NCBI GenBank assembly: GCA_003223115.1
Contig: QHXW01000161.1
Location: 1 to 64,000 of the forward strand
Direction: 5' to 3'
Source of the DNA: Acidobacteriota bacterium
Lineage (GTDB): Bacteria > Acidobacteriota > Terriglobia > Bryobacterales > Bryobacteraceae
DNA: 64,000 bases
The position numbers and the translations under genes were made by a program. Below, one piece after another: positions 6,004 to 21,363 of the stretch; within the stretch, counting starts at the first letter, position 1, and every line of letters starts with the position of its first letter. The notes under the pieces are model-generated. The model was given only the letters and a program-made list of their open reading frames with translations, made no database searches and was not told where the DNA came from.

Positions 6004-6075
6004 CACTGGCCCACACGGCACCACATCTCCATGCCAGACTGCTCATCACAGCGGCGGTAATATCTCATGAATATG

Positions 6076-6305
6076 TTAAAACTTAAAAGCGACTCGTCGA
6101 AATTCAATCGCGACGGTAATACCGGTCGCGGCTCCGGAAGCCACGCCAAAGAAAACGCCGAGTCCGATGCCGTAGCCGATTCCGAACAGGATAGGTATGT
6201 CACCATCCTGGTGAGCAGCCATAAATCGTAAGCCAGATACAGGCCGCCGAGCACATCAACAGAGATGCCGGTGATGCTCACGGCCGCAACCGCGTGATGG
6301 TCCAC
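6076..6305 (-). pseudogene. Small integral membrane protein, frameshifted
   Basis: From a GTG at 6305 the frame reads VDHHAVAAVSITGISVDVLG and GLYLAYDLW, then shifts. The second frame reads IPILFGIGYGIGLGVFFGVA and SGAATGITVAIEFRR to a stop at 6076. The composite has a first helix ending GLYLAYDL and a long Gly-rich second helix, like small putative membrane proteins of soil bacteria. Part of the inter-helix loop also seems deleted. Function unknown. Confidence 0.45.
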
Positions 6306-6453
6306 AGAACAATTGTAAATGGCGCTACGGCGCCTCCGGTACGCGGCCGCACATTGCGGCATCCACAAATTTGTCCGAGGATTTAGCGAGCATCGGAATC
6401 CATCTGACGTCGAGGGCCATCAACACATATCAAGACGAGTACTGGACGTATTC

Positions 6454-7464
6454 ATGCCCAAGATACGCGCCGTACAGGTCTCCCGCGCGAAAGCGCCTTT
6501 CGAGATTGTGGAACGCGAAATTCCGGAACCAGGTCCCGAATCGGTGCGGATCAAAGTCCAGGCCTGTGGCATCTGTCACAGTGACACTCTCACCAGAGAT
6601 GGAACTTTTCCGCTGGTCGAGTACCCGCGCGTTCCCGGGCACGAGGTCGTGGGGATCGTGGATGCGGTGGGTTCTGGCGCCTCGCGGTGGGCACCCGGGC
6701 AGCGCGTCGGAGTCGGCTGGCACGGCGGAAACTGCGGCTACTGCGAAGCTTGTCGCCGCGGCGACTTGTTCGCCTGCCAGACCTTCACCGGCATCACCTA
6801 TGACGGAGGCTACGCCGAGTACATGATCGCGCGGGCTGAAGCGTTGGCTCTGGTCCCCGACGAGTTATCGTCGGTGGAGGCGGCGCCGCTCATGTGCGCC
6901 GGTATTACCACGTTCAATTGCTTGCGCAACAGCGGTGCGCAGCCGGGCGAACTCGTCGCCGTGCTCGGTCTGGGCGGGCTGGGGCATCTTGCGGTTCAGT
7001 TCGCCGCCAGAGCCGGATTCCGGACGGTTGCGATCGCACGAGGGAAAGACAAGGAGCCGCTGGCTCGCAAGCTCGGCGCCCGGAATTACATCGATAGCCA
7101 GACGCAGGACCCTGCCGCGGAACTGCGCAAACTGGGCGGCGCCAAGGTGATCCAGGCCACCGTAACGAATGGCGATGCGATGGCGGCCGTGGTGGGTGGT
7201 CTCGGCACGAATGGAACGCTCATGATCATTGGCGCCGCGCCGTCGTTGACGATTTCCCCCGGTCAACTCCTTGGAGGCCGCCAGTCTGTGAAAGGCTGGT
7301 ACTCGGGTACCTCGATCGATTCGCAGGACACGCTAAACTTCAGCGTGCTTGCCGGCGTGCGTTCGATGAATGAAGTTTTCCCGCTGGAGCGCGTGGACGA
7401 AGCGTACGAGCGGATGTTGAGCGGCAAGGCGCGATTTCGCGTCGTGCTCACAATGGGCGGCTAA
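6454..7464 (+). CDS. Zinc-dependent alcohol dehydrogenase (MDR family)
   Basis: 336-residue cytosolic medium-chain dehydrogenase, expected to oxidise alcohols or reduce aldehydes with NAD(P). The catalytic-zinc Cys is in ACGICHSDTLTRDG (about residue 39) and the ligand pair GHEVVG follows at about 62. The structural zinc lobe is GNCGYCEACRRGDLFAC with four Cys. The cofactor loop is VLGLGGLGHLAVQFA (about 170-185). I chose the ATG at 6454 because MPKIRAVQV is the family start; the upstream 45 codons of the open frame are unlike the family. It converges on glcF with overlapping stop codons (7461-7464). The substrate cannot be told from sequence. Confidence 0.9.
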   Translation: MPKIRAVQVSRAKAPFEIVEREIPEPGPESVRIKVQACGICHSDTLTRDGTFPLVEYPRVPGHEVVGIVDAVGSGASRWAPGQRVGVGWHGGNCGYCEACRRGDLFACQTFTGITYDGGYAEYMIARAEALALVPDELSSVEAAPLMCAGITTFNCLRNSGAQPGELVAVLGLGGLGHLAVQFAARAGFRTVAIARGKDKEPLARKLGARNYIDSQTQDPAAELRKLGGAKVIQATVTNGDAMAAVVGGLGTNGTLMIIGAAPSLTISPGQLLGGRQSVKGWYSGTSIDSQDTLNFSVLAGVRSMNEVFPLERVDEAYERMLSGKARFRVVLTMGG

Positions 7465-8792
7465 ATGTTTTTATAAGCCTGGTCGAGAATCTCGACGACG
7501 TGCGCAACACGTTGGCCTTTGCCGTGCAAACGCGCGCCGGCCTGCAGTTGAAGCATGCAACCCGGATTCGCCGTGACAATCACAGCGGCGCCAGTCGAGT
7601 TGACGCTCTCCATCTTCTTTTCAAGCAGCGCCATGGACATGCTGTTTTCAACTACGTTGTAGACGCCAGCGCTGCCGCAGCACAGATCGGAGAGCGGCAT
7701 CTCGCGGAACTGTAATTTCGGAACCGCGGCCAGCAGGCGGCGTGGAGCAGTCCCGATTTTCTGGCCGTGCGCGAGATGACAGGAGTCCTGGTAGGTGGCG
7801 ATCACAGGTACGGGGCCCATATCCAGGTTCAGCCCGATTGAGGCCAGAAACTCGTTCACATCTTGAACCAAATGGCTGAAGCGCTGCGCTTTTTCCGCGT
7901 AGGCGGCGTCGTGTTCTAGAAGGTCGTGATATTCCTTGAGCGTTGAACCGCAGCCGGCGGCATTGGTGATGAGGGCATCGAAACCGCCCTCCAGAATTGC
8001 GTCGATATTGCAACGGGCCAGTTTGCGAGCATCCTCGCGCAGACCGGCGTGCACGTGCAGCGCGCCACAGCAACCCTGCCCGGCAGGTATGACGACCTCG
8101 CATCCGTTTTTTTGCAGCACGCGCACCGTGGCCTCATTGAGACGCGCGAACGAAATATTGGCCAGACATCCGGCCAGGAAAGCCACGCGCTGGCGTTGCG
8201 GCCCTTCGGCGGGAAACGTCTTTCCGATCTGGCTAAAAAAGAACGGCGGCTCGGCCGAAGGAGCGAGCTGTTCGATGCGGCCCAAGATTCCCAGGAGTTT
8301 CCAGAGGCCAGATCCGCGCACCAGGGCCTGCAGACCGCTGGCCTGGTAGAGATAAACCATGGCGCCGGCTACGGTCATCCACGTGGGCGACTGGAGCAGA
8401 CATCCAAACACGAACCGGCGCAACAGGCGAGTCATGAAGGGCCTGCGCACGCGATTTTCGATCTCGGCCCGAGCCGCCTCCACCAGCTTTCCGTATTGCA
8501 CGCCGGAAGGGCAGGCGGTCTCGCATCCGCGGCAGGCGAGGCACAATTCGATGTGCTCTATGTACGAGGGGGTGACGGGAGCCCCGCCGGCCACCTGCAC
8601 CATTTGATAGATGCGCCCACGCGGCGAATCCATCTCGAGACCGAGTTCGCGATACGTGGGACAGGCGTTCAGGCACAGGCCGCAGTGCACGCAACGGTCG
8701 AGATCCGCCTGTTGGGGGCGGTCAAAATCCGCCGGCTGCGGAGCGCGAAAGATGTCGACGCGGACATCAGATGAGGCGGTAGAGGCGGCCAC
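7461..8792 (-). CDS. glcF: Glycolate oxidase iron-sulfur subunit GlcF
   Basis: 443 residues. Two 4Fe-4S ferredoxin motifs lie at the N-terminus: CVHCGLCLNACPTYRELG (about 34) and CLACRGCETACPSGVQYG (about 87). Two CCG domains follow: LAGCLANISF with GQGCCGALHVHAG, and DSCHLAHGQ with LSDLCCGSAGVYN. This is the standard GlcF layout; the subunit passes electrons from the flavoprotein to the respiratory chain. The GTG start at 8792 lies inside the end of glcE (26-nt overlap), so the two are translationally coupled. glcD, the catalytic flavoprotein, is not next to them in this window. Confidence 0.93.
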   Translation of the reverse strand: MAASTASSDVRVDIFRAPQPADFDRPQQADLDRCVHCGLCLNACPTYRELGLEMDSPRGRIYQMVQVAGGAPVTPSYIEHIELCLACRGCETACPSGVQYGKLVEAARAEIENRVRRPFMTRLLRRFVFGCLLQSPTWMTVAGAMVYLYQASGLQALVRGSGLWKLLGILGRIEQLAPSAEPPFFFSQIGKTFPAEGPQRQRVAFLAGCLANISFARLNEATVRVLQKNGCEVVIPAGQGCCGALHVHAGLREDARKLARCNIDAILEGGFDALITNAAGCGSTLKEYHDLLEHDAAYAEKAQRFSHLVQDVNEFLASIGLNLDMGPVPVIATYQDSCHLAHGQKIGTAPRRLLAAVPKLQFREMPLSDLCCGSAGVYNVVENSMSMALLEKKMESVNSTGAAVIVTANPGCMLQLQAGARLHGKGQRVAHVVEILDQAYKNI

Positions 8793-15642: not shown

Positions 15643-15747
15643 GCCAGAGCGGCGGATTTCCCTCGTGTGCATTGCGAACTCTGCTACGATGACGCCATAG
15701 GTGGGGTTGGGGCGGCGACCGTCCACACAACAGCCTGTTTCCAAAAT

Positions 15748-17568
15748 ATGGATCGCATCGGACGTTACGAAATCGTGAGGGAACTGGGGCGCGGTGCCAT
15801 GGGCGTTGTGTACCTCGCGGTGGATCCCACGATCGGCCGGCAGGTCGCGATCAAGACCATTCGTCTGGGTGAGGTGGACGATCCGGAGGAACGCACCCGG
15901 CTGCGTGAGCGCCTTTTCCGCGAAGCCCGTTCTGCCGGTATTCTGTCACACCCGGGAATCGTCACTGTCTACGACATGGAAGAGCAGGACGACATCGCTT
16001 TTATTGCCATGGAATTCGTGGACGGCCCCACTCTCGACCAGTTGCTTTCGGCCCGGGAGCCGATGCCGCCCGAACGCATGATGAACATCCTGCGGCAAAC
16101 GGCGGTAGCCATGGATTATGCCCACCAGAAGGGTATCGTGCATCGGGATATCAAGCCCGCAAACATCATGATTGCGTCCGATGGCGCGGTGAAAATCACT
16201 GATTTCGGCATCGCCAAGCTGACCACCGCACAACAGTACACACAGACCGGAACCATTGTCGGGACCCCTAATTACATGTCTCCGGAGCAGGTGCAAGGCC
16301 TCGCCGTGAGCGGGCGCGCCGACCAGTTTTCGCTGACCGTCATTGCCTACGAAATGCTGACCGGTGAGCGGCCTTTCACCGGCGAACATCTCACCACCGT
16401 GGTGTACAAGATCGTGGCCGAAGAACCGCCGCCGGCGCAGCGGCTGAATCCGACGCTGAGCACGCACATTGACGCCGTGCTTCGGCGCGGGCTGTGGAAA
16501 AAGCCAGAAGGCCGCTACGCCACCTGCCTGGAGTTCGTGAATGCACTCGAGGCTGCCTGCGCCAATACGAAGGAGTGGAAGAACCTGGTGCGCGGGGCGA
16601 ACCTGAACATGCCCACGGTAATCAGCGAACCCCCTGAGGCCCTGAGGCACAATGTGGCCAGCACCACCGAGGAAGGTCGCATGTCTAGGCGCCGGGCATC
16701 CAGATGGGTGTTGCCCTTCGTGGCGGCGCTGATCGTGGCTGTCGGGTTGATCGGGGTCATCGCGCTGCAGTTCGGACCTGGGCTGACGCTGGGGCATGGG
16801 CCTTCAGCAGCGCCGGCCACCGCCAACCATGCGCCGACGCAGCAACCTACAACCTCCACCACGTCAGCCTCTCCGTCACCGGCCCCTTTATCGGTAGACC
16901 AAAAGCCAAGCCCTATGACCCCACTCGCGGCAAATCCGCCTGCAGCAGCGGCTCCCACTTCCACACAGCCGGCTACGGAACCTGTGCAGCAGAAGCCGGA
17001 AACACAAAACCCTGCTTCCCAACCCGCTGAAGAGCAGCCGGCGGAGGCGGCAAAAGCCGACCTATCCTCGCAGCCGTCCGAACATGTCCCCGCCAAAGAA
17101 CCGCCGCCGAAGCGGCCCGCCCCGGTGATTACAAGCAGGCCCGCTGGTGGACCTCTTACGGTAATGGTGATGACTGATCCCCCTGGCGCGAACGCCATAT
17201 TGGATAACAACCCGGAGATATCCTGCAAAACTCCCTGCCTTCTGAATGTCACTCCCGGCCGTCATACAGCGACGATGGTGCGCGAAGGTTATCAGCACGA
17301 GAGCCGCGAGTTCCGAATTACCGACAGCCCCATCGAGTTGCCGCTGCTCAATCTGCGCGCTCAAACCGGAACATTGATGCTCAGCTCGACGCCCAGCGGG
17401 GCCGCCATTTATGTTAACGATCGGCTGACGCAGCAAGCCACACCTTCGCAACTCAACCTGCCTCCGGGAAAATACAACGTTCGCGTGGAAAAGGACGGAA
17501 TGCGCAAATCTGAATCCGTCGAGATTCGTAACGGCGTTACGAGCTATCTGCGAATTCCACTTCAGTAG
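15748..17568 (+). CDS. Ser/Thr protein kinase with PEGA domains
   Basis: 606 residues. The N-terminal Hanks-type kinase shows the Gly loop (ELGRGAMGVVYLA), the ATP Lys (VAIKTIR), the catalytic loop HRDIKPANIMI, DFGIAKLT, and GTPNYMSPEQVQG. After a short juxtamembrane stretch there is one membrane helix (WVLPFVAALIVAVGLIGVIA, about 345-365), a long Pro/Ala/Thr/Ser-rich linker, and two PEGA repeats at the C-terminus (MVMTDPPGANAILDNN; LSSTPSGAAIYVND). The kinase domain should be cytoplasmic and the PEGA part outside. The start MDRIGRYEIVRELG is standard; earlier in-frame codons are not conserved. Likely a surface-sensing signalling kinase. Confidence 0.92.
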   Translation: MDRIGRYEIVRELGRGAMGVVYLAVDPTIGRQVAIKTIRLGEVDDPEERTRLRERLFREARSAGILSHPGIVTVYDMEEQDDIAFIAMEFVDGPTLDQLLSAREPMPPERMMNILRQTAVAMDYAHQKGIVHRDIKPANIMIASDGAVKITDFGIAKLTTAQQYTQTGTIVGTPNYMSPEQVQGLAVSGRADQFSLTVIAYEMLTGERPFTGEHLTTVVYKIVAEEPPPAQRLNPTLSTHIDAVLRRGLWKKPEGRYATCLEFVNALEAACANTKEWKNLVRGANLNMPTVISEPPEALRHNVASTTEEGRMSRRRASRWVLPFVAALIVAVGLIGVIALQFGPGLTLGHGPSAAPATANHAPTQQPTTSTTSASPSPAPLSVDQKPSPMTPLAANPPAAAAPTSTQPATEPVQQKPETQNPASQPAEEQPAEAAKADLSSQPSEHVPAKEPPPKRPAPVITSRPAGGPLTVMVMTDPPGANAILDNNPEISCKTPCLLNVTPGRHTATMVREGYQHESREFRITDSPIELPLLNLRAQTGTLMLSSTPSGAAIYVNDRLTQQATPSQLNLPPGKYNVRVEKDGMRKSESVEIRNGVTSYLRIPLQ

Positions 17569-18055: not shown

Positions 18056-19870
18056 ATGAAAACGCGACATACAAAAACCCTTCAACTTCCCCGCTCGATC
18101 AGTACTTCGAACTCACGAACCGCGTCCTCGTTGCCAATTTCCGCGACGGGCGTGCATTCGGGATTTAAGCGTCTGATTCGAGTAACGACTTTACTGGCTT
18201 TCGCCGGTCTGGCTTTTGGCGGTCCTAAGCTGGCGCCGGACCTGCCGAAGAACTCCAACTCTATGGTGGATGTGATCGTTCAGTTCCACAACCCGCCCAC
18301 CAAAGCACAGCTGAAGCAACTCGGCGCTTACGGCAAGATGAAGAAGATTTTCAACGGCATCAATGCCGCCCATCTTAGTCTGCCGATGAGCACCGTACAG
18401 GCGCTCGAAAGCGATCCGTCGATCGTTTACATTTCGCCGGACCGCCCCACGGCTGGTTCATTGGACATGGTCGCCGCGACCGTCAATGCGACCATGGCCT
18501 GGCAGTATGGCTGGGATGGAACCGGCGTTGGCGTAGCCGTGATCGACAGTGGCGTTACTCCGAAAAATGATCTGATGGCCAGTGATGGCGTCAACTCTCG
18601 CGTGGTTTATAGCGAGAGTTTCATTGGCGTCTCCGATACGACGGATGGATACGGCCACGGGACCCACGTCGCGGGCGTCGTTGGCGGTAACGGCAAGGAT
18701 TCGAGCGGCGTCGGATTTACGCGGATGTTCCGCGGAATGGCGCCCAACGTTAATCTGATCAACCTTCGCGTGCTCGATCAGAACGGCGCCGGCACCGAGA
18801 GTGGCGTCATCGCGGCCATCGACCGCGCAATCCAATTGAAAAACACCTACAACATCCGCGTCCTGAACCTTTCTCTGGGTCATCCGGTCTATGAAAGCTA
18901 CAAATTAGATCCGTTGTGCCAGGAAGTCGAAGCTGCTTGGAAGGCCGGCATTGTAGTCGTTGTTGCGGCCGGCAACTACGGGCGCGAGAACTCCTATGGC
19001 AGACACGGGTACGGCACCATAGCGTCTCCGGGTAACGATCCGTATGTCATTACCGTGGGCGCGACAAACATGAATGGCTCCTCGAGCAGAGATAACGACA
19101 CCATCGCCAGTTACAGCTCGAAGGGCCCGACGATGGTCGATCACATCGTGAAGCCGGATCTGGTGGCTCCAGGCAATAGTGTTGTCTCTTTGTTAGCGTC
19201 GCCCACCTGCACGTTATTCATGAGTTTCCCGAAGACGCAGGTGAACACCAGCACTTATGAAACTCTGGGTTCGACAGGAGCTGCTGGAAGTTATTTTCGG
19301 CTGAGCGGAACCAGCATGGCTACTCCGGTAGTCAGCGGCGCGGCAGCCCTCATGATTCAGAAGCAACCTTCGTTGACTCCGGATCAGATCAAGGCGCGCC
19401 TGATGAAGTCGGCGACCCGGCTATTCCCGCAACACAGCTATGGCGTCGATTTCCTGTCTCAAGTTAAGTACGACAGTCAATCCGACATTTTTGCTGTCGG
19501 CGCCGGATATCTCGACATTAATGCCGCGCTGGCAAGTACCGATCTGCCTACGCTCCCCGCGCTCTCTCCGGTCGCCGTGTTTAACTCGATCACGGGCAAG
19601 GTCACCATCATGCGTGACTTTTCAGTGGTCTGGGGCGACTCGGTCGTCTGGGGTGACTCGGTTATCTGGGGATCCGGTTTGAGCACGATTTTGAACGGCA
19701 GTTCCGTGATTTGGGGAAGCTCGGTCGTGTGGGGCGACTGCACGATGTCGGGCATTAGTGTGATCTGGGGTGGGGCGGTAGACATCCGCAGCCCCTTGCA
19801 GGCCTTGTCGGCCGATGACGGTGATACGGATACACTACCTGATCCGACCACCGCGGCACCACTTCCGTAG
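18056..19870 (+). CDS. Secreted S8 subtilisin-like protease with VWGD repeats
   Basis: 604 residues. A basic N-terminal stretch leads into a hydrophobic signal segment (VTTLLAFAGLAFGGP), an I9-type propeptide region (VDVIVQFHNPPTKAQLKQLG), and the S8 catalytic domain: Asp in VAVIDSGVTP, His in GYGHGTHVAGVVGG, oxyanion Asn in VVVVAAGNYG, Ser in LSGTSMATPVVSGAAAL. The C-terminus has about seven S-V/I-V/I-W-G-D/S units (SVVWGDSVVWGDSVIWG, SSVIWGSSVVWGD, SVIWGG) and an acidic tail. Start chosen at ATG 18056 for its Shine-Dalgarno sequence. The next gene starts 11 bp after its stop, so they form an operon. The role of the repeats is unknown; they look like a beta-strand ladder. Confidence 0.9.
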   Translation: MKTRHTKTLQLPRSISTSNSRTASSLPISATGVHSGFKRLIRVTTLLAFAGLAFGGPKLAPDLPKNSNSMVDVIVQFHNPPTKAQLKQLGAYGKMKKIFNGINAAHLSLPMSTVQALESDPSIVYISPDRPTAGSLDMVAATVNATMAWQYGWDGTGVGVAVIDSGVTPKNDLMASDGVNSRVVYSESFIGVSDTTDGYGHGTHVAGVVGGNGKDSSGVGFTRMFRGMAPNVNLINLRVLDQNGAGTESGVIAAIDRAIQLKNTYNIRVLNLSLGHPVYESYKLDPLCQEVEAAWKAGIVVVVAAGNYGRENSYGRHGYGTIASPGNDPYVITVGATNMNGSSSRDNDTIASYSSKGPTMVDHIVKPDLVAPGNSVVSLLASPTCTLFMSFPKTQVNTSTYETLGSTGAAGSYFRLSGTSMATPVVSGAAALMIQKQPSLTPDQIKARLMKSATRLFPQHSYGVDFLSQVKYDSQSDIFAVGAGYLDINAALASTDLPTLPALSPVAVFNSITGKVTIMRDFSVVWGDSVVWGDSVIWGSGLSTILNGSSVIWGSSVVWGDCTMSGISVIWGGAVDIRSPLQALSADDGDTDTLPDPTTAAPLP

Positions 19871-19881
19871 GAGGGCGAGAA

Positions 19882-20613
19882 ATGCAAGAAGAGAAAACCA
19901 CGATGCCTACCAAAGCCAAGATTTATATCGGCCTTGTAATCATCCTAGGATTCGCCCTTCTGGCGGGATCCGTCGCGCTCCGGTCTGATTTCCCGGATAT
20001 GCCGCGCTACATCAGCTACCTGCTGCTAGCGCTGCTCGCTTCGACTTTTAAGGTGCGGTTGCCCGGAATCACGGGCACCATTTCGGTGAACTTCCTGTTG
20101 ATCCTCATCGGTATCGCAGATTTTACGTTTACCGAAACCATTACCATGGGATGCGCCGCCATCGTCATTCAATGCGTGTGGGGCGCTAAGCGGCGGCCGC
20201 AACTGATTCAGGTTCTCTTCAATGTGGCCGCGCTCGCGCTCAGCATCGGAGTGGCTTACCAGGTTGCACATTACACTCTGACTCTGGCGCGCGCTGAGTC
20301 GCTGTCAGCCTTGCTGGTGCTCGCCGCCTGCACGTACTTCATGAGCAACACGCTGTTGATTTCGGGCGTGCTCTGTCTGATGGAGGGAAAGCCGCTGAAG
20401 AAAGTCTGGCAACAATGCTACCTGTGGTCATTCCCGTATTACCTGGTCGGCTCCGCGATTGCCGGAATTATCAGCGTATCCAATCGCACAGTGGGCTGGG
20501 AAACCTCGCTTCTGATCATGCCGATTATGTACCTGGTGTACCTGTTCTACCACTTCTGCGTGGAACGTATGTCCCACGATCCTGAGCGACTCGCCGCCAA
20601 ATCCGCTGCCTGA
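19882..20613 (+). CDS. Integral membrane protein, MASE-like, no output domain
   Basis: 243 residues with about seven membrane segments, e.g. IYIGLVIILGFALLAGSVAL, YISYLLLALLASTF, VNFLLILIGIADF, VLFNVAALALSIGVAY, and a C-terminal LLIMPIMYLVYLFYHF. The pattern resembles the N-terminal sensory membrane modules normally fused to GGDEF or HD domains, but this protein ends after the last helix and short tail. A good Shine-Dalgarno sequence (GGAGGGCGAG) precedes the ATG at 19882, only 11 bp after the subtilase stop. Co-transcription with the protease suggests a shared role such as sensing or anchoring; this is inference. Confidence 0.75.
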   Translation: MQEEKTTMPTKAKIYIGLVIILGFALLAGSVALRSDFPDMPRYISYLLLALLASTFKVRLPGITGTISVNFLLILIGIADFTFTETITMGCAAIVIQCVWGAKRRPQLIQVLFNVAALALSIGVAYQVAHYTLTLARAESLSALLVLAACTYFMSNTLLISGVLCLMEGKPLKKVWQQCYLWSFPYYLVGSAIAGIISVSNRTVGWETSLLIMPIMYLVYLFYHFCVERMSHDPERLAAKSAA

Positions 20614-20627
20614 ACCGCCCGCCACGA

Positions 20628-20661
20628 GTGCCGGCCGTAAAGTTGAAATTACGGCCGGCAC
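20628..20661. terminator. Strong intergenic hairpin after membrane protein gene
   Basis: GTGCCGGCCGTAA (20628-20640) pairs perfectly with TTACGGCCGGCAC (20649-20661) around an 8-base loop, starting 15 bp after the stop of the preceding gene. No T-run follows, so it may be a transcript-end stabiliser or a Rho-type end instead of a classical intrinsic terminator. Confidence 0.6.
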
Positions 20662-20825
20662 ACCTTCACTTCCGTACGAGAAACCCGCAATTTCCGCACA
20701 CGGCGAATTTCAGGTAAGTGAGCCCGCGAACGCGTTGCCAGTGTTCAAATGGGCCCTCGAATCGTCGATGGACTGCGCCGCCGGTGGATCCCGGAATGTT
20801 ATGATTGAATTCAGTTCGGCCGAGT

Positions 20826-20901
20826 GGGCGAGTAGCTCAGCTGGGAGAGCACGGCGTTCGCAACGCCGGGGTCGTGGGTTCGAATCCCATCTCGTCCACC
20901 A
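20826..20901 (+). tRNA. tRNA-Ala (anticodon CGC)
   Basis: 76 nt with encoded CCA. Acceptor GGGCGAG pairs with CTCGTCC (one G-U). The D arm is GCTC/GAGC, the anticodon arm CGGCG-TTCGCAA-CGCCG with CGC at 34-36, and the T arm GTGGG-TTCGAAT-CCCAT. The anticodon reads GCG (Ala). It stands alone between the membrane protein gene and dut. Confidence 0.97.
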
Positions 20902-20931
20902 ATCTTCTTAGGCGACATTCTCAATCAACCG

Positions 20932-21363
20932 CTACCGTCCCGACGATCCAAAGCCGCCATCGCCGCGCACTGAATCGTCCAATTCTGCTTCTTCCCACTC
21001 GACAGCTTCGTAACGCGCGATCACCATTTGTGCGATCCGGTCTCCCGTCTCGATCAGGTAATCTTGTTTTCCAAGATTGAGCAGGATCACACGAATCTCG
21101 CCGCGATAGCCCGGATCAATAGTCGCGGGACTGTTCGGCAAGGTGATGGCGTGCTTCAGAGCCAGGCCGCTGCGCGGGCGAATTTGCGCTTCGTAGCCGG
21201 GCGGTAGTTCAATGGCGATGCCGGTTGGGATCAGTCCCGGCACTCCGGGCGCGAGCGTGACCCGCTGGACGGCGCGTAAGTCTAGCCCCGCATCTTCCGC
21301 GGACCCATGTGCGTATCGGGGCAGAAAAGCATCATCGCGGAGCCGTTTGATTCGAATCTTCAT
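20932..21363 (-). CDS. dut: dUTP diphosphatase (dUTPase)
   Basis: 143-residue trimeric dUTPase with all five motifs: AEDAGLDLRA (I), IRPRSGLALKH (II), NSPATIDPGYRGEIRVILLN (III), GDRIAQMVIARY (IV) and the C-terminal RGDGGFGSSGR (V). It hydrolyses dUTP to dUMP and pyrophosphate, keeping uracil out of DNA and feeding dTMP synthesis. It is transcribed away from the double ThyX gene, with about 120 bp between the two starts. The product is the substrate of that neighbour. Confidence 0.95.
   Translation of the reverse strand: MKIRIKRLRDDAFLPRYAHGSAEDAGLDLRAVQRVTLAPGVPGLIPTGIAIELPPGYEAQIRPRSGLALKHAITLPNSPATIDPGYRGEIRVILLNLGKQDYLIETGDRIAQMVIARYEAVEWEEAELDDSVRGDGGFGSSGR

Follow-up and report, generated by a model that had tools for sequence, protein, structure and literature searches.

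Does a secreted protease that ends in a ladder of VWG repeats act together with the membrane protein encoded directly behind it? This question is raised by a two-gene locus in the window, the whole stretch of 64,000 nucleotides that was analyzed, which belongs to an Acidobacteriota genome of 9.1 Mb (the source genome). An earlier note on this DNA had suggested that protease, repeat ladder and membrane protein could form a surface system in which the repeat tail, once processed, is sensed or anchored.

The subtilase, its ladder and the membrane module

The protease reading frame matches PF00082 (E=1.9e-55) and carries an intact triad Asp164/His201/Ser420, which is invariant among 49 relatives. 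By this Asp-His-Ser triad in a PF00082 domain the protein is a Peptidase S8, for which proteolysis is predicted. The sequence also shows a recognizable Sec-type signal peptide, so that the secreted S8 protease read by the earlier note is borne out. Named records closest to the protease, and to the related genomes compared below, are from Acidobacteriota, many of them Bryobacterales. In catalytic fold, triad, propeptide and secretion signal the protease is like S8 enzymes with a C-terminal extension of the PDB 3afg type, but it differs from them in its C-terminal VWG hexapeptide ladder, which is preceded by a strand pair following the catalytic domain. No Pfam family covering the ladder was found in a Pfam search.

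In the window protein six S-x-[VI]-W-G units are located at residues 523, 529, 535, 550, 556 and 568. Their final residue is D in three, S in two and G in one unit. Of the "about seven" SV(V/I)WG(D/S) units claimed before, the ladder itself therefore stands, whereas the count has to be lowered to six and one unit ends in G. A DNA pattern covering two units matched the window at the ladder site only and was absent from 100 shuffles; in 37 related genomes it gave about 100 matches compared to 0 for the reversed control. These controls rule out a chance repeat, and since the units differ in their codons they do not stem from recent slippage. A comparison of 853 units from 111 proteins yielded the hexad consensus [NSG]-[VIA]-[VI]-W-G-[TDSNE], with a unit spacing of 6, or 12 where a degenerate unit intervenes; between the ladder end and the C-terminus there are usually no more than about 18 residues. 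Even with 49 homologues as input, AlphaFold2 did not model the ladder confidently (pLDDT about 30); judging from the period-6 x-V-V-W-G-x pattern it may be of beta type.

The gap to the membrane protein gene is indeed 11 bp (19871–19881), as had been noted, and the AGGAGG of this gene overlaps the protease stop codon. Downstream of the module gene follow a hairpin, terminator-like but lacking a clear T run, and then a tRNA gene (Table 1), which sets the two genes apart as a unit of their own. An ORF overlapping the tRNA gene (20805–21080) was rejected as spurious. Just upstream of the pair, at window positions 15667–17568, lies a gene for a Ser/Thr protein kinase with two PEGA-domain stretches.

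Table 1. Features of the two-gene locus in the window and positions of double-module proteins at other loci
Feature	Position	Strand	Basis
Subtilase (Peptidase S8) with C-terminal VWG ladder, 604 aa, predicted to be secreted	18056..19870	+	PF00082, triad
Subtilase, alternative starts	TTG 17945; GTG 18152	+	
Sec-type signal peptide, hydrophobic core, residues 43–56	18182..18223	+	read from sequence
Propeptide-like domain, residues 69–129	18260..18442	+	strand/helix alternation in structure model; Inhibitor_I9 match in 3/49 relatives
S8 catalytic domain, residues 155–459	18518..19432	+	PF00082
VWG ladder: six S-x-[VI]-W-G-[DSG] units in three blocks with degenerate spacers between	19622..19774	+	pattern match
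Shine-Dalgarno AGGAGG (19869–19874) and 11-bp spacer	19869..19881	+	sequence
Putative membrane receptor module, MASE9-like/S-component-fold, 243 aa, without output domain	19882..20613	+	MASE9 21.1 bits (below gathering cut-off 24.3); fold
13-bp perfect hairpin at end of two-gene unit	20628..20661	+	z = -3.30
tRNA-Ala (CGC), directly downstream of two-gene unit	20826–20901		
Double MASE9-like proteins	L029 (source-genome C392) 1167–2606; L178:6171–7595; L186:3560–4957; L187:3085–4485		
Double MASE9-like proteins, continued	L188:1574–3007; L051:1–1127; L098:1–1053		

The membrane protein matches MASE9 (PF20972) with E=3.3e-4, and 26 of 33 homologues do so at E≤0.01 (best 2.4e-9). Apart from a single short hairpin the predicted structure (pLDDT 92) is all-helical, and about seven of its helices are membrane helices. 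The best PDB matches of this model are the ECF S-components RibU, NikM, BioY, FolT and ThiT, with Foldseek probabilities of 0.99–1.00 and TM scores of 0.40–0.65 but weak E-values (≥0.014); one relative matches ECF-ribofla_trS also by sequence (E=4e-4). The window protein is a divergent MASE9 relative, and its predicted fold appears to match the six-helix fold of ECF S-components. A Pfam search for an output domain in its 243 residues found none. The former description as a seven-helix, sensory-like module without GGDEF/HD output thus agrees with our results, and the protein falls into a family of sensory domains rather than into an unrelated well-known family.

Many of the MASE9-like homologues bear GGDEF, HD, EAL or HisKA outputs; unlike them, the window protein stays below the gathering score, stands alone, is output-less and is paired with a protease. 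It also appears to be like 5TMR-LYT receptors and ECF S-components in its predicted fold, and its relatives are likewise used as receptors with cytoplasmic outputs. It differs from both systems, as PF07694 (5TMR-LYT) was matched by none of 33 family members and no free EcfT/EcfA module was found in the source genome. The S-component fold is common to transporters and 5TMR receptors, and some S-components transport alone (PMC11109136, a paper in which MASE, proteases and Acidobacteria are not mentioned). A solitary S-component taking up the products of the protease would fit this fold and the ECF-ribofla_trS match. We nevertheless regard such a transporter as rather improbable: signalling domains fused to its homologues would hinder a transport cycle, and the only EcfT of the genome belongs to a nickel locus resembling NikR-NikM-CbiQ-CbiO. 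This speaks against transport driven by an ECF module and led us to rule out ECF coupling of the membrane protein.

Distribution of the ladder and its neighboring modules

We scanned 84,980 species, with one genome per species, using a DNA pattern of three ladder units and obtained at least 118 stretches. Among the matches listed, 92 encode an S8 domain on the same fragment, most of the remaining ones are truncated copies of the same C-terminus, and nearly all are from Acidobacteriota; hardly any ladder in this set lies outside the subtilases of that phylum. A general bacterial repeat was rejected, as most matches outside the phylum lack an S8 domain and are simple repeats or spurious reading frames. 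A few matches resemble this family but come from MAGs titled Acidimicrobiia, perhaps through mis-binning. Where one genome (e.g. G030, G035, G016) has ladder copies at several loci, these tend to share their linker dipeptide (TT, TG, SN), a sign of recent duplication, of homogenisation or of a partner in common. A literature search for these repeat strings in this context found no matching paper.

Ladder subtilases were counted on the basis of [VI]WG≥4 and the tandem-unit pattern. In the source genome all four (C43, C207, C409, C494) adjoin a homologue of the membrane protein, and none of the other subtilases checked there lies beside a module. Among the matches listed from the pattern scan, a module is located downstream, within 3 kb, of 46 of the 90 decidable ladder subtilases, and in 39 of these 46 cases the distance is 300 bp or less, compared to an expectation of about 0.1. 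Neighbors varying at random, the outcome that would have spoken against a system, were therefore not observed; throughout the phylum a homologous module, with or without GGDEF/HD, is found beside about half or more of the VWG-repeat subtilases. In the 37 related genomes a module lies within 3.5 kb of 12/36 ladder subtilases identified by the DNA pattern versus 7/114 others (p=1e-4). Six of these seven others also carry a ladder (AVWG/ILWG variants or visible in the protein) while the seventh is truncated where its contig ends. Conversely, every testable subtilase with a same-strand module at a distance of up to 3.5 kb carries the ladder (18/18).

Co-occurrence was also seen at the level of genomes. 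The module is present in 12/12 ladder genomes versus 11/25 others among the 37 related genomes (p=9e-4), and in 10/10 versus 57/188 in a separate sample of 198 Acidobacteriota genomes (p=1e-5), in which a ladder genome was defined by two or more ladder matches. Adjacent pairs were found in eight of these ten (G000, G093, G128, G137, G158, G216, G232, G239) and not in G074 and G129. The pairing is not due to chance: a ladder subtilase and an S-component-fold, MASE9-like module constitute a recurrent gene pair of Acidobacteriota. The module often occurs in genomes without a ladder, and at least a third, up to about 40–45%, of ladder subtilases are without a linked receptor. In the tree set described below this holds for 34/91 decidable ladder subtilases, a count that includes loci fetched because of their module, so that 46/90 is the less biased figure. 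Downstream of the stand-alone module a search for a further conserved gene found none. In a deep clade without the module a GNAT acetyltransferase directly follows the ladder subtilase (L157:1837–2496, L101:6393–7067); L155 resembles this arrangement by eye, and GNAT is possibly another conserved neighbor.

Modules beside ladder subtilases are stand-alone (about 235–260 aa), doubled (375–553 aa) or fused to outputs, namely HD-GYP+GAF, HD-GYP+GAF+GGDEF, PAS+GGDEF+EAL or PAS+HisKA+HATPase+REC. As the output varies while protease and sensor remain constant, the latter two look like a functional unit. Output-bearing paralogues also exist in the source genome (C409 MEM-HD-GAF, C118 MEM-HD-GAF-GGDEF). 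Double MASE9-like proteins, with two S-component-like modules in one chain and no output domain, occur in at least six genomes, either next to a ladder subtilase or by themselves. In the vicinity of some solo ladder subtilases there are genes for other signalling proteins, namely a sigma-54 activator with PilZ, response regulators or kinases. In L094 two ladder subtilases in tandem face a divergent MEM-HD-GYP gene and are followed, at 6074–7528, by a sigma-54 activator that has a PilZ domain (c-di-GMP-binding).

The strict co-occurrence of ladder and module in genomes, even when unlinked, and the many modules without output would also be expected if the module were no receptor but a factor that anchors, exports or processes the ladder, similar to an exosortase acting on a C-terminal signal. 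We consider this unlikely, since homologues beside ladder subtilases bear c-di-GMP or kinase outputs and the predicted fold is that of an S-component. In contrast to exosortase/rhombosortase-type sorting pairs the module lacks conserved catalytic residues of that kind: its only invariant columns are K57, P61, Q97 and F113, and an exosortase-like Cys/Arg/His set is not among them.

Descent and exchange of the pair

In a tree of 111 subtilases the paired and unpaired states require 19 changes, and pairs are present in both deep clades. Protease and module distances are correlated (Mantel r=0.64, p=5e-4, 42 pairs), part of which is explained by co-inheritance through common descent. This correlation and the clade-wise conservation in Acidobacteriaceae are what one would expect if the two genes were neighbors by descent only. 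Such neutral linkage is nevertheless highly improbable, because the pair is scattered over deep clades and persists despite swapped outputs, a changed gene order (in C494 the module is upstream of the ladder subtilase), tandem duplication of the protease beside one module and, in one case, a swapped protease.

This last case is locus L136:2327–5094. Acidobacteriales loci are matched by its upstream region, its signal peptide and its module (72–82% DNA identity), whereas its protease body and ladder are of Bryobacter type and match the C207 copy of the source genome (75.6%). L136 is a natural recombinant of a native signal peptide and module with a foreign protease body and ladder. The pair thus persisted although its protease gene was exchanged, and lineages of ladder and module can be mixed; ladder and catalytic domain travelled together and were accepted by the local module. 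Lineage-specific matching of ladder and module was rejected, as a foreign protease and ladder beside a native module argue against it.

Possible roles of the pair

Taken together, the results point to an Acidobacteriota-wide protease-receptor signalling pair. We consider it probable that the receptor senses in a protease-coupled manner, and slightly more likely that it recognizes the protease or the tail directly than that it senses products. Ladder subtilases without a linked module, the output-less state of the window's own receptor, the weak Foldseek E-values and the separable lineages of ladder and module in L136 weigh against this reading. In such a mechanism the subtilase would be exported and mature by removal of the propeptide, and the hexapeptide (x-V-V-W-G-x) tail would serve as a beta-type docking or surface element. 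The receptor, in whose fold the ligand pocket is close to the outer side of the inner membrane, would read the state of the protease or its activity nearby and change its conformation, which in fused receptors would drive HD-GYP/GGDEF/EAL or kinase domains. For the output-less module of the window the simplest possibility is that it may partner with the output-bearing paralogues, or may dock the protease at the membrane.

Alternatively, the subtilase might degrade an external or periplasmic protein and the module bind the released peptide or amino acid, while the ladder would fulfil another task, for example in attachment or stability. S-component-fold receptors have a small-ligand pocket near the outer face (PMC11109136), the L136 module tolerates a foreign protease and ladder, and modules without ladders as well as solo ladder subtilases exist. 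The L136 recombinant and the solo ladder subtilases favor either such product sensing or a loose, generic recognition. If products alone were relevant, however, any protease should do, yet every testable module-adjacent subtilase carries the ladder and other subtilases of the same genomes are not beside modules, which speaks for an involvement of the tail or of proteases of this family. Product sensing therefore appears possible but somewhat doubtful to us. Within the reading of protease-coupled sensing we put forward, tentatively, a more specific version: the ladder might be an encoded ligand or dock on a secreted subtilase, recognized by receptors of the S-component fold whose c-di-GMP or kinase outputs are interchangeable, which would amount to sensing of the cell's own protease or of its processing state throughout Acidobacteriota.

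Proteases are linked with c-di-GMP or transmembrane signalling in LapG/LapD and in site-1/site-2 cascades. As these are commonly described, they involve another protease class and another sensor fold. Here a known protease class and a known sensor type are joined in a phylum-wide, previously unreported partnership that includes an undescribed repeat. We know of no input for most MASE-type c-di-GMP sensors. The conserved protease partner is a concrete candidate input, both for one family of MASE-type sensors and for S-component-fold proteins that act as receptors, and the pair exposes an undescribed protein repeat nearly specific to Acidobacteriota, a dominant but poorly understood soil phylum.
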